Shown here piece after piece: positions 4,414-63,763 of a DNA stretch of 64,000 bases. The stretch comes from an uncultured Clostridia bacterium (lineage in GTDB: Bacteria > Bacillota > Clostridia > Oscillospirales > Ruminococcaceae). Both the position numbers and the translations under genes were made by a program. The notes under the pieces were generated by a model. It was not told the origin of the DNA, ran no database searches, and saw nothing but the letters and a program-made list of their open reading frames with translations. The stretch is taken from NCBI GenBank assembly GCA_947626755.1, contig CANQTP010000007.1:20175-84174 (forward strand). The letters are read 5' to 3'. The stretch's first letter is position 1. Each line of letters opens with the position of its first letter.

Positions 4414-4601
4414 AGAGTTGAGAGTTAAGAGTGGAGAGTGGAGTTATTGACATAAACTGTCAGTATTCTTTTCTTCGTTTAATGCGGTGCGAGAATAAAT
4501 TGTTAAGATTTTTGCTGTTTTTTTAATTTGAGAGTACAAAGTTGAAATGTTATCTCAACTCTTAACTCTCAACTCTCAACTCTAAAAAAGCTCTCAACTC
4601 T
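4414..4601. repeat. Heptamer-bounded inverted-repeat element, copy A
   Basis: The left end is agagttgagagttaagagt and the right end ctcaactcttaactctcaa; the two are built from TTGAGAG/TTAAGAG heptamers in opposite orientation and could form a long stem. The interior (ttgacataaactgtcagt) shares a short stretch with copy C but lacks the TTTATCTCACGGCAGG block found in copies B and C. The right end stops about 20 nt before a TTG-started gene and abuts its ribosome binding site. No ORF is evident in the element. Confidence 0.75.
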
Positions 4602-12308: not shown

Positions 12309-12424
12309 GCATTTACAGAGTAGGCAAACGCGCGTACAGTGCTTGGCGGACGGGGAGTTGCCGCCTTGACGAAAAACATACTCAGGTATGTTTGCGGTGC
12401 GTTTGCCGCATCCCGCTGAAATGC
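12309..12424 (+). ncRNA. Tetrahydrofolate (THF) riboswitch
   Basis: The sequence fits the THF-I class: AGAGTAG at the 5' junction, GCGTACAGTG (compare GCGUUAAGUG), GGGAGTTG, ACGAA, then GCGGTG and TTGCCGCATCCCGCTG. Stems visible by eye are P1 GCATTT/AAATGC (12309-12314/12419-12424), a perfect 9-bp GGCAAACGC/GCGTTTGCC, GGCGG/CCGCC and AAACATA/TATGTTT. It stands directly upstream of folT, the class's commonest target, and should sense reduced folates. A covariance-model search would settle the assignment. Confidence 0.85.
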
Positions 12425-33271: not shown

Positions 33272-33459
33272 AAGAGTTGAGAGTTGAAAGTTAAGAGTTG
33301 AGATATTGCAGTAACGCTTATATTTTCGGCTTCAATGCTTTTGTAGAAATAACTTTACTTTATCTCACGGCAGGTACAAAGCGAAAAATCACTGAATAAA
33401 GCCTGAAAGCGTGCAGGCTCAGCCTGCTCTTAACTCTCCACTCTTAACTCTCAACTCTA
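33272..33459. repeat. Heptamer-bounded inverted-repeat element, copy B
   Basis: The left end agagttgagagttgaaagtt and the right end ctctccactcttaactctca are inverted heptamer arrays. The interior contains TTTATCTCACGGCAGG and GTGCAGGCTCAGCCTGCTC, both also found in copy C about 15 kb away. The element fills most of the rpmF-DUF512 gap, and its right end abuts AAAAGGGGTG, the ribosome binding site of a TTG-started gene. No promoter for the DUF512 gene is evident outside the element. Confidence 0.8.
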
Positions 33460-33480
33460 TAAAAGGGGTGTGTAATCGGT

Positions 33481-47139: not shown

Positions 47140-47400
47140 ATTAAAAGCTGTGATCGGGACAGTAACGGATACCCCGTTCCAAAGAGAGGGCGGCATTGCG
47201 CTGAAACTGCCTGTTCGGTTATCCTGTGAAACACACCCGTGAGCTTCCATGTGTAAATCGTGTAATTTTTTCACGAAAAGCATGGGCGTTTCCCGCGTTA
47301 AGGAACAATGAGGTCTGCAATTCTTTTGCTTTGCAGATGAAATTGGGTGGTACCACGGTTTTTCTGCCGTCCCTTTGCGGGGCGGCTTTTTGATTTTTTG
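47140..47400 (+). ncRNA. T-box leader of hisS, histidine specifier
   Basis: Stem I is seen with CGGG/CCCG at its base and AGAGAG near 47184. The specifier CAC (47232-47234) is followed by A, just before the CCCG strand. The T-box GGGTGGTACCACGG lies at 47345-47358. The terminator GCCGTCCC/GGGGCGGC (47366-47386) is followed by TTTTTGATTTTTT. Uncharged tRNA-His should raise hisS expression, and possibly that of genes downstream. Confidence 0.92.
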
Positions 47401-48742: not shown

Positions 48743-48946
48743 AGAGTTGAGAGTTGAGAGTTAAGAGTTGAGAGTTAAGATGTTGACATAAAACGTTAGT
48801 GTTCCGGTCTCAATTCAATATAAAGCGGAGTTGGGACATAGATTGCATCTTGCTTTATCTCACGGCAGGCATTAATTTGAAAATCACAAAACTTCGCCTG
48901 AAAGGGTGCAGGCTCAGCCTGCTCTCAACTCTCCACTCTTAACTCT
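48743..48946. repeat. Heptamer-bounded inverted-repeat element, copy C
   Basis: The left end agagttgagagttgagagtt and the right end ctctccactcttaactct are inverted heptamer arrays. TTTATCTCACGGCAGG, CCTGAAAG and GTGCAGGCTCAGCCTGCTC are shared with copy B. ttgacataaa.cgttagt is shared in part with copy A. The right end abuts GCGAGGTG, the ribosome binding site of the phosphoesterase gene. The track's N-terminal MQAQPALNSPLLTL extension is translated repeat and is not real. Confidence 0.8.
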
Positions 48947-58900: not shown

Positions 58901-59583
58901 TTGTCATATAAATTAAGAATAGTAGGTACATATACACTACCGGGATTATAATAACGGCCGGTATCTATTTCTATATAACCGTTAGTACAAGTAACGCTTT
59001 TTCCGTTAAGATAGAGGTTGATCGTACCGCCCGGTTTAATTGTACATTTTTCACTGAGCATAACATTATCCGCAAGATACCAGTTTCCCTCTGTCGTAGG
59101 CAAACTTTCCGTTTCTGTCCATTCTGTAAATTCTATGTTGTTATAGATAATCGTTTTATCACTTTCAAGCGATAACATATCAATTCCATTATCCGCGCAT
59201 ATCTCACAGTAATAATTGCACGGCGAACCTGCGGTTTCTTCCTTGTAACCGCAAAGTTCATCATGGACGTGAGAACAGTTCAGCGTTTTTGTTATGCAGC
59301 CGCTTTCTTCGGTGCAGACGTGCGTACATGGATCTGTGCAGGACTCATCACATATATGCACGCAATTTTCCGTTATTATGTAACAATCTTCGGTATGTTC
59401 ATGACCGCAGTCGGCGCCTTCGGACGCTTCTGCATATCCGCATTCGGCAGTGTGTTCCGTATGGTGGGGACAAAGTCCGCCTGTATATTCCGATACATCT
59501 TCAGCTGTGCCTGTTATGGAAACGGCTGAAAAGACAGATAATGCCGTCAGTGTGCTGATAATTCTGCGTATTATTCTGTTCAT
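55954..59583 (-). CDS. Large repeat-rich secreted/surface protein with Cys/His-rich head
   Basis: About 1209 residues from the ATG at 59583, preceded by GAGGTG. It has a signal peptide (~1-27). A Cys/His-rich region (~35-145) carries 'CPHHTEHTAECGYAE', 'CGHEHTEDCY', 'CTHVCTEESGC' and 'CSHVHDELCGY' and is probably metal-binding. A right-handed beta-helix-like stretch with GGTLEGSLYGI and GGEISGTKVG repeats follows (~170-440). An array of ~45-50-residue repeats ('V.LP.GGTVN.DG.I....V....T', ~470-1000) comes next. After a beta-rich domain it ends in a membrane helix and KKKR. There is no LPxTG. Likely cell-surface; ligand unknown. Confidence 0.85.
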   Translation of the reverse strand: MNRIIRRIISTLTALSVFSAVSITGTAEDVSEYTGGLCPHHTEHTAECGYAEASEGADCGHEHTEDCYIITENCVHICDESCTDPCTHVCTEESGCITKTLNCSHVHDELCGYKEETAGSPCNYYCEICADNGIDMLSLESDKTIIYNNIEFTEWTETESLPTTEGNWYLADNVMLSEKCTIKPGGTINLYLNGKSVTCTNGYIEIDTGRYYNPGSVYVPTILNLYDNGSGSIIGGESEDQTIKVCGWNAGEVRCSLNVYGGKICGSKRAVDNRGILTVKGGTLEGSLYGIDNPAIASECIIEGGAINGTKYYGIYNYIGDVKISGGEISGTKVGVLNQDGNVTVSGDAIIKGTGSDGVGIMNDYYLYGGDNLPQYLEVNGGIISGTAAGVQNKVKDGHITLNGGTVCGRKGVELFSGEEDEEHFSNSNGIEIDSENYTIGPDRSITVTGDSEVKRGSSDVELPQGGTISPDGTISGKEIVLLNGEDEGITFEGTETDNVQITTDGNVKIPPEGKFQKGEAEITLPDGGTVDNKGNIIAEEIKVEDVTVTGEFTVDSDGNITVLAGGGGTIKKGGTEITLPSGGKVNTDGTIETKEAVIGGTTVTSKDNIDFDKDGSINVSGDDTVQIGDSVITLPSGGTVNKNGNIETKEAVIGGTKVSSEDNVKFDKDGNINVSEKDTVQIGDIYVELPKGGTVNADGTISADEVIVKDITVTGKSVKVDKDGNITVPENGIVKKGETEIILPSGGTVNKDGNIITKKAVAGNTTVTSENEIVFDKDGNIKVSEDDSVQVGDIDVELPKGGTVNADGMISAVEVTVKDVTVKGESVTVDKEGNIIVPENGTIKKGETEITLPSGGKVDTDGTIETKKAVIGGTTVSNENNIEFNTDGSIKVSEKDTVQIGDIYVELPKGGTINADGTISTDEVIVKDITVTGKSVTIDKDGKIKISEGDTVRIGDDTTITGSGITVSPDGKIILPSDGEVTIERDGKKTIYDAGSLKNGDGTVLIESAEGSEIKYIFADDKSDCPSDGYIFLSVEEDTSDISEAGTISGYTAIKAYDIKLMYNGEKEVQPDGTVKVTLKIPEDADSNAELEVFHISGGTSESMNAVKDDGTISFTTDHFSIYVIASKDSEPSQQSENTVPVPRHGIGLEPAVIGKSDSGTEDASSAAGIVSGNDELGAVKNYSGSAALVCCIFAAVSAAAILGKKKR
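56560..58200 (-). repeat. In-gene tandem repeats of the surface-protein gene
   Basis: Two alternating repeat types are seen at the DNA level. Long blocks are nearly identical: the segment around 56789-56905 recurs at 57447-57563 with about three changes, and the block 'cgccgcttggaagtgttatctccgtt' recurs several times. Such near-identity favours copy-number change by recombination or slippage. Confidence 0.85.
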
Positions 59584-59617
59584 TTGGATCACCTCAAAAA
59601 TATTGATTTATATGTAA

Positions 59618-59648
59618 ATTATATCACACGTATATATATATATATATA
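59618..59648 (-). promoter_or_regulatory. Surface-protein promoter with (TA)9 tract in the -35/spacer region
   Basis: On the minus strand an extended -10 TGATATAAT (complement 59618-59626) is preceded by CGTG and an uninterrupted (TA)9 (59631-59648). That tract occupies where the spacer and -35 would be, and no TTGACA-like -35 is present. Change in TA number would alter promoter geometry. Confidence 0.6.
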
Positions 59649-59730
59649 GCTTATGAATGATTTCTGAACATTAAGCGACAATTTTCGGGATAGCTTTCTT
59701 CATATTATTCTTCTGATCCGTTTCGGTTAC

Positions 59731-59757
59731 AGAAAGACCCGATCGTTTAAGATCGGG
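59731..59757 (-). terminator. Terminator after the polysaccharide deacetylase gene
   Basis: On the minus strand CCCGATC ttaaac GATCGGG is followed by TCTTTCTGT. It isolates the deacetylase transcript from the surface-protein promoter. Confidence 0.7.
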
Positions 59758-59764
59758 CAAAAAT

Positions 59765-60397
59765 TCAGTGATAATAACGTTCCGTCTGCATGGCGCTTGT
59801 GTAAAGTATCCCGCTTTGGGGAGTTATGTTCTTTTCCTTGAAAAGTCCCGATACGGTAACAAAGCGGTAATTTTCCTTTTGCAGTTCGGGAATTATCATT
59901 TTTAATGCATCGACAGTGCGGAAATTTCCCTCCGCGTCGTGCAGGAGAATTATAATTCCGTCTTTCGATTGTGCAATTATCCGCTTATAGCGTTCTTCGG
60001 CGGAAACTTCGTCAAGGTAATCTTCCGCGCCTACTCCCTGAATAAACGGCAGATCGATATTCTCAAACATCGTTTCGTTTACCGCTATGTAGGGCGGACG
60101 GAAAAATTTCGGACGTACTCCCACTGCTTTTTCCACCGCATCGGAAGTAAAATTTATTTCCGAGGAAATTTCTTCGACAGACATTTTTGTCATATCAGAA
60201 TGTGTCTTTGAGTGGTTGTGGATCTCACAGCCGAGACTGAAAGCCTTTTGCATGACTTTTGCCGAGTCGGCGTTGATGTTTTCCCCGCAGACGAAAAAAC
60301 TTGCGGGGATATGGTGTTCTTCTAGAATATCAAGCACCTGCGGAGTGGTCACGGTATTAGGTCCGTCATCAAATGTAAGGGCAATTATTTTATCCAT
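59765..60397 (-). CDS. Polysaccharide deacetylase (CE4/NodB family)
   Basis: A 210-residue NodB-homology enzyme. Motif 1 is LTFDDGPNT, with the catalytic base and metal Asp. Motif 2 HNHSKTHSDM gives the two metal His. Motif 3 is RPPY, and LLHD near residue 150 supplies the catalytic His. Such enzymes remove N-acetyl groups from peptidoglycan or other glycans. No signal peptide or membrane anchor is visible, so an intracellular site or unconventional export must be considered. It is 9 nt downstream of the MATE gene, with AGGAGG overlapping that gene's end. Confidence 0.9.
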   Translation of the reverse strand: MDKIIALTFDDGPNTVTTPQVLDILEEHHIPASFFVCGENINADSAKVMQKAFSLGCEIHNHSKTHSDMTKMSVEEISSEINFTSDAVEKAVGVRPKFFRPPYIAVNETMFENIDLPFIQGVGAEDYLDEVSAEERYKRIIAQSKDGIIILLHDAEGNFRTVDALKMIIPELQKENYRFVTVSGLFKEKNITPQSGILYTSAMQTERYYH

Positions 60398-63478: not shown

Positions 63479-63552
63479 GCGGGTGTAGTTCAATGGTAGA
63501 ACTCCAGCCTTCCAAGCTGGTCGCGTGGGTTCGATTCCCATCACCCGCTCCA
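63479..63552 (+). tRNA. tRNA-Gly (anticodon TCC), CCA encoded
   Basis: The acceptor GCGGGTG pairs with CACCCGC. The anticodon loop CTTCCAA is closed by CCAGC/GCTGG, and GTGGG TTCGATT CCCAT forms the T arm. The discriminator T is followed by an encoded CCA. Confidence 0.96.
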
Positions 63553-63556
63553 TTTT

Positions 63557-63633
63557 GCGCCTTTAACTCAGTTGGATAGAGTAACTGCCTTCTAAGCAGT
63601 AAGCCACTGGTTCGAGTCCAGTAAGGCGCGCCA
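63557..63633 (+). tRNA. tRNA-Arg (anticodon TCT), CCA encoded
   Basis: The acceptor GCGCCTT pairs with AAGGCGC. The anticodon loop CTTCTAA is closed by ACTGC/GCAGT, and CTGG TTCGAGT CCAG forms the T arm. Discriminator G and CCA are encoded. It starts four bases after the tRNA-Gly CCA. Confidence 0.96.
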
Positions 63634-63685
63634 AACTGAACTTGGAGGCAGAGCCGTTTTGTCTCCGGGCTCTTTATTTTAATAT

Positions 63686-63763
63686 GGTGGGTGTAGCTTA
63701 GTCGGTTAAAGCGTCGGATTGTGGTCCCGAAGATCATGGGTTCGAATCCCATCTCCCACCCCA
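63686..63763 (+). tRNA. tRNA-His (anticodon GTG), CCA encoded
   Basis: The anticodon loop TTGTGGT gives GTG. The encoded G at -1 (63686) opposite discriminator C fits tRNA-His identity. The T arm ATGGG TTCGAAT CCCAT is perfect. Two stems carry mismatches as I fold them: T6 opposite T67 in the acceptor stem, and A31 opposite C39 closing the anticodon loop. Confidence 0.93.

Follow-up and report, generated by a model that had tools for sequence, protein, structure and literature searches.

As listed in Table 1, the window (the whole 64-kb stretch of DNA that was analysed) carries on its minus strand a gene for a large repeat-rich protein. A promoter region with a perfect TA repeat lies upstream of this gene, followed further upstream by a polysaccharide deacetylase gene. 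The N-terminal part of the protein comprises a signal peptide and then a Cys/His-rich region; 109-aa repeats, visible in the DNA as tandem repeats of 327/162 bp, make up further parts of it, and the C-terminus is formed by a hydrophobic segment and KKKR. An LPXTG motif is absent from the sequence. By these features the product would be an exported surface protein anchored C-terminally by the predicted hydrophobic segment. For residues ~150–360 a structure model computed from a two-sequence alignment was rich in strands (pLDDT mostly 70–90), and this region appears beta-solenoid-like; Foldseek searches with the model returned beta-helix matches alone, all of them insignificant (E of at least 0.1). 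Pfam and NCBIfam also matched the protein to P-type ATPases, with the matches falling in the 109-aa repeats and no single stretch passing alone for Pfam and for two of the three NCBIfam families. This identity was rejected as repeat-driven.

Elsewhere in the window we observed three elements of ~180–200 bp (4414–4590, 33273–33460, and 48743–48946) bounded by inverted heptad arrays, (AGAGTTG)n/(CTCTCAA)n, the second and third copies having their inner sequence in common. Rfam searches identified a THF riboswitch (12314–12420), a T-box leader (47141–47377), and three tRNAs (63479–63760).

Read along the minus strand, the deacetylase gene and its terminator are followed by a 22-nt box ending in TTCATAAGC, by (TA)9, by the 7-nt CGTGTGA that separates the repeat from the −10, and by TATAAT; a 34-nt stretch containing the ribosome-binding site then leads to the ATG at 59583. 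As the deacetylase terminator lies between the two genes, the tract promoter is most simply taken to be the surface gene's own. The deacetylase was matched in 21 of 21 genomes in a search of the genus. In the nearest relative (G019, ~90% DNA identity in the flank), different genes are found between the deacetylase and a transaldolase-like gene, which suggests that the surface gene and its promoter are accessory. A table of hexamers and spacings for the window promoter revealed no good −35 at the present tract length. The original prediction had assigned a (TA)9 tract to the spacer and −35 region of this promoter, behind an extended −10 and with no normal −35, and had named a large repeat-rich surface protein as the target. 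The sequence bears out each of these points, the tract being exact and far beyond chance and the gene downstream encoding an exported repeat protein of 1,209 aa.

Table 1. Features of the surface protein locus and its promoter (positions in the window).
Feature	Position	Strand	Basis or remark
Exported surface protein, 1,209 aa	55954..59583	−	ORF and translation
Ribosome-binding site GAGGTGATCC	59586..59595	−	Sequence
Extended −10 TGATATAAT	59618..59626	−	Sequence; TATAAT at 59618–59623
(TA)9 microsatellite	59631..59648	−	Exact sequence; spacer/−35 zone
Sequences flanking (TA)9 at 59631–59648: AATCATTCATAAGC ... CGTGTGATATAAT			
22-nt box (TRTTYACARAATWTTAAYAARC-like)	59649..59670	−	Abuts tract upstream; conserved in three species
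TTCATA, weak −35-like hexamer	59652..59657	−	4/6 vs. TTGACA; 3 nt distal to tract
Intrinsic terminator of deacetylase gene	59737..59758	−	Terminator scan; fold −14.1 kcal/mol, z −3.9
Polysaccharide deacetylase, upstream neighbour	59765..60397	−	Pfam PF01522

Under a first-order Markov model trained on the window, such tracts are expected 4e-7 times per 64 kb and 2e-5 times per 3.31-Mb genome. No other TA/AT run in the window exceeds 4 units, and among eight A/T-only runs of at least 18 nt the (TA)9 is the single one made of alternating TA. In the whole genome, nine TA runs of at least 6 units were found: two short ones, with 6 and 7 units, and seven with 9–21 units. This gap and the long tail behind it would be expected if tracts slip once they exceed a threshold length, and a heavy length tail of this kind would be typical of a slipping microsatellite. 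An extended −10 stands directly at the tract in two of the seven, namely the window tract (C7) and a 14-unit tract (C15) that lies 9 nt from TATGGTATAAT and precedes an FkbH-type gene. The others include a 21-unit tract upstream of the complete promoter of a chemotaxis receptor gene (C16), an 11-unit tract upstream of a sigma-28-like promoter, TAAA-N15-GCCGATAT (C30), a tract before a membrane-protein gene (C62), and one adjoining a two-component locus (C152). TGCA directly borders four of the seven tracts (L006, L007, L009, and L010), in each case as TGCA then ATAT on one strand.

The remaining tract, (AT)10 at C33:13387–13406 (L008:2988–3007), runs in frame through a gene for a WaaS/CpsH-family glycosyltransferase. 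A homologue in G020, 63% identical, is without four residues exactly at the position of these 10 units, and a gain or loss of 1 or 2 units would bring a stop by codon 223. Judged by its sequence, this gene is probably a frameshift contingency locus of the classical kind. It indicates that TA tracts of this genome can occupy length-sensitive places.

Tract lengths were compared in a set with one genome per species, in which length differences are those between species and between paralogous promoters. An element of ~300 bp, with ~85% identical flanks and a sigma-28-like promoter (TAAA-N15-GCCGATRT), occupies different loci in two species (L007, L099, and L100); its TA tract measures 22 bp in the own genome and 32 and 16 bp at the two G019 sites. 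In another species (G009, L089–L094), six promoters with nearly identical flanks have TA tracts of 17–25 bp, and secreted paralogues stand behind five of the six. Four of these paralogues were scanned and carry fn3 and/or BspA-LRR domains, with BspA-type leucine-rich repeats in two. The G009 promoters contain a TTTAAAC-N5-GTTTAAA-like dyad between the tract and the −10, the tract ending 32 nt from the −10.

Counterparts of the window promoter were found in two further species. A gene of G015 (MAG contig CANQPX010000032.1) encodes the same ectodomain as the window protein over 1,021 bp at 91% identity, with a sharp start; the beta-solenoid part common to the two proteins spans ~340 aa. The G015 gene has a different N-terminus and lies at a different locus, beside a receptor-like gene. 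As the core genes adjoining the window locus are ~78% identical between the two genomes vs. 91% for the ectodomain, the latter has probably been exchanged. The G015 promoter contains 13 TA units, 6 nt from TACAAT and followed by ATGTGATACAAT; this is the sole tract of at least 8 units detected in that genome by two anchored searches. TGTGATAYAAT is common to both promoters. A lipoprotein gene of G018 is preceded by a tract of 11 units, which is followed by ATTGGTGATATAAT and stands 8 nt from TGATATAAT. Both the G015 and the G018 promoters were also recovered when the window promoter served as a DNA query. The 22-nt box is 15–16/22 identical per pair among the three species (p ~3.5e-4 or less per pair vs. 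intergenic 22-mers, for a box recognised after the fact in three sequences), at distances of 25, 30, and 32 nt from the −10. Ordinary alignment of the G015 and window promoters gave no homology outside the tract region; short box and −10 alone agree, and we do not claim orthology of the two. Two anchored searches found no tract of at least 8 units in 15 of the 21 genus genomes, which argues against such tracts being a general by-product of the base composition of the genus.

The arrangement was also counted in wider genome sets, some of the statistics having been picked after the sequences had been seen. In 398 family genomes, tracts with an extended −10 behind them were counted at nine distinct sites (seven outside the own genome) vs. 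none for the reversed pattern. TTKACA-(TA)n-TANAAT, with spacers of 13–23 nt, occurs at 11 sites in 394 order genomes vs. none for the control; five of the 11 precede proteins with an evident predicted signal peptide, including two paralogous, putatively TasA-like ones. Two paralogous genes for putative secreted TasA-like proteins in G531 (L125 and L128) have TTGACA-(AT)n-TATAAT promoters with unlike spacer lengths. A stricter pattern gave no site outside the own genome among 243 class genomes and two sites for its reversed control, and we conclude that the arrangement is not general. At their distal border, 7 of 17 tracts have a hexamer with at least 5/6 matches to TTGACA, vs. 9.7% of controls (P 7e-4). 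Of 13 genes preceded by tracts in the genus, 11 appear to be exported; with the G009 paralogues collapsed, the count is 7 of 9 vs. 21 of 90 in the background (P 0.002), as judged by a home-made signal-peptide rule against this small background.

With a length beyond chance, a place in a promoter, and a surface-type gene behind it, the window tract has the sequence features of a promoter-repeat contingency locus. With little more than even confidence, we read the (TA)9 as a hypermutable microsatellite in the promoter of an accessory surface gene, where changes in length would alter transcription and make the locus phase-variable. On the evidence of sequence, the window locus is probably a new contingency locus and the tract probably serves as an on/off or dimmer switch that is prone to slippage; phase variation is a well-supported hypothesis short of proof. 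Slipped-strand mispairing would change the number of TA units within the population, and this number would in turn affect expression. Of two routes by which the length could act, the −35/−10 spacing is the likelier, though short of even odds, and the distance of the 22-nt box the less likely.

By the first route, the tract would be an expanded spacer of a sigma-A promoter. TTCATA lies 28 nt from the −10 now and would lie at 18 nt with 4 units and at 16 nt with 3, so that a promoter of 3–4 units should be the strongest. With any length from 8 to 14 units, TATATA (3/6) stands 17 nt from the −10; at 8 or more units it would fill the −35 zone, and transcription would rest on the extended −10. At 5–7 units the −35 zone takes in GC from the tract border and the hexamers are poor, predicting a poorer −35. 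A 4/6 match near the tract border arises in 57% of random draws, and TTCATA means little on its own; the presence of TTCATA (window), TTAACA (G018), and TTAATA (G015) at one place, 3 nt from the tract border, lends some support to the spacing mechanism. The earlier expectation that loss of five or six units would bring TTCATA to 16–18 nt is correct as arithmetic and fails as a single-step switch, a multi-unit deletion being needed. As TATATA stays in place throughout the range of 8–14 units, gaining or losing one unit at the present length of 9 should have next to no effect on the promoter by way of −35 spacing. The proposed likeness to the Haemophilus TA switch holds for the TA tract in the promoter zone and not for the steps: from the present 28 nt, and with the same −35 at 8–14 units, one-unit changes do not pass through 16–18 nt. 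Phase variation itself retains the tract, its promoter place, the exported target, and counterparts of other lengths, against one-unit steps that leave the predicted −35 unchanged. A more accessible prediction would be a drop in promoter activity on shortening of the tract from 8 units to 7.

Neutral slippage, which we consider somewhat unlikely, is the main rival to a length-dependent promoter: TATA-like seeds in promoter DNA that is AT-rich and under weak constraint would expand with little effect, the extended −10 sufficing without a −35. The predicted −35, being the same from 8 to 14 units, speaks in its favour. Tracts occur also at sites without an obvious promoter (C152; G018 C1:21962), and TATAAT can seed TA runs, the G260 and G212 tracts lying 2 nt from a TATAAT. 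Neutral expansion is opposed by the excess of exported-protein genes, by the good −35 hexamers at distal borders, and by the upstream box common to three species. A further point against it is the matching tract position in two genes with a common ectodomain whose promoters have no homology by ordinary alignment.

The second route, by which the tract would set the distance of the conserved 22-nt box, a possible regulator site, from the −10, amounts to a switch of the nadA type. A putative regulator would bind the box, and changes in the tract would shift the box in distance and helical phase relative to the −10, giving graded expression. The retention of the box in three species at 25, 30, and 32 nt would fit such a switch, as would the G009 tract, upstream of its dyad and ending 32 nt from the −10; a precedent is nadA, in which TAAA repeats shift the spacing of NadR sites (PMC3899988). 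Against this, the box was recognised post hoc in three sequences; since a −35-like hexamer forms its end, it may simply be the −35. We regard a distance switch as unlikely.

Still less probable is a static promoter element, in which the tract would be an easily melted or flexible UP-like region of exactly maintained length. A/T-rich DNA often lies upstream of a −10, and the C16 and G321 tracts are located ahead of a complete promoter, but the lengths differ widely between related promoters and an UP element needs no perfect repeat. An assembly artefact in the repeat length is highly improbable: assemblers can miscount repeats and this is a draft assembly of 198 contigs, yet 18 bp is far under read length and similar tracts recur in independent assemblies of related species.

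Extending the phase-variable reading beyond the window, we tentatively propose that a mobile or repeatedly evolved module, consisting of the 22-nt box, (TA)n, and the extended −10, makes accessory surface proteins phase-variable genus-wide. If so, it would form, together with the tracts of the BspA-like paralogues and the in-frame glycosyltransferase tract, a microsatellite-driven set of switchable surface genes. Searches of the open-access literature returned no paper describing phase variation by simple repeats in Clostridia or in gut metagenomes. Were the reading true, gut Clostridia, which are abundant commensals, would diversify their surface proteins by repeat slippage in the manner of mucosal pathogens, and counts of TA units at a few sites in metagenome reads that already exist would suffice to read the switch. 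The promoter module of three species and the G009 paralogue family provide a ready set of loci for testing.

Known promoter repeats offer several parallels. The fimbrial hifA/hifB promoter of Haemophilus influenzae contains (TA)9–11 tracts (PMC2651432, PMC3899988) and resembles the window promoter in having a TA tract of similar unit number in the −35/−10 zone of a gene for a surface structure. The hif promoter is divergent, with the repeat setting the −35/−10 spacing, whereas the window tract precedes one gene and is combined with an extended −10 and a 28-nt spacing to a weak −35 candidate that would require the loss of five or six units; its host is a gut Clostridia bacterium. In Neisseria meningitidis, (TAAA)n near the nadA promoter changes the spacing of the distal and proximal NadR sites (PMC3899988). 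Both loci have a repeat near the promoter that sets, or in the window might set, the spacing of sites; nadA differs in its tetranucleotide and in its regulator NadR, compared with a dinucleotide tract reaching 7 nt from the −10 and a putative regulator site in the window. The porA gene of the same species, encoding an outer-surface protein, has a poly-G repeat in the −35/−10 spacer (PMC3899988), a location like that of the window tract, but its repeat is a mononucleotide changing in one-base steps, and for porA the effect on transcription was shown experimentally. The vlhA promoters of Mycoplasma gallisepticum, which belong to paralogous surface-protein genes and have conserved flanks around a variable (GAA)n (PMC6258824), match the G009 family in conserved flanks, variable repeat, and paralogues; the vlhA repeat is a trinucleotide that lies ~40 nt ahead of the start, and activity is highest with 12 units. 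We lean slightly towards a length-dependent promoter in the window, with a repeat that would work like those of hif, porA, nadA, and vlhA.
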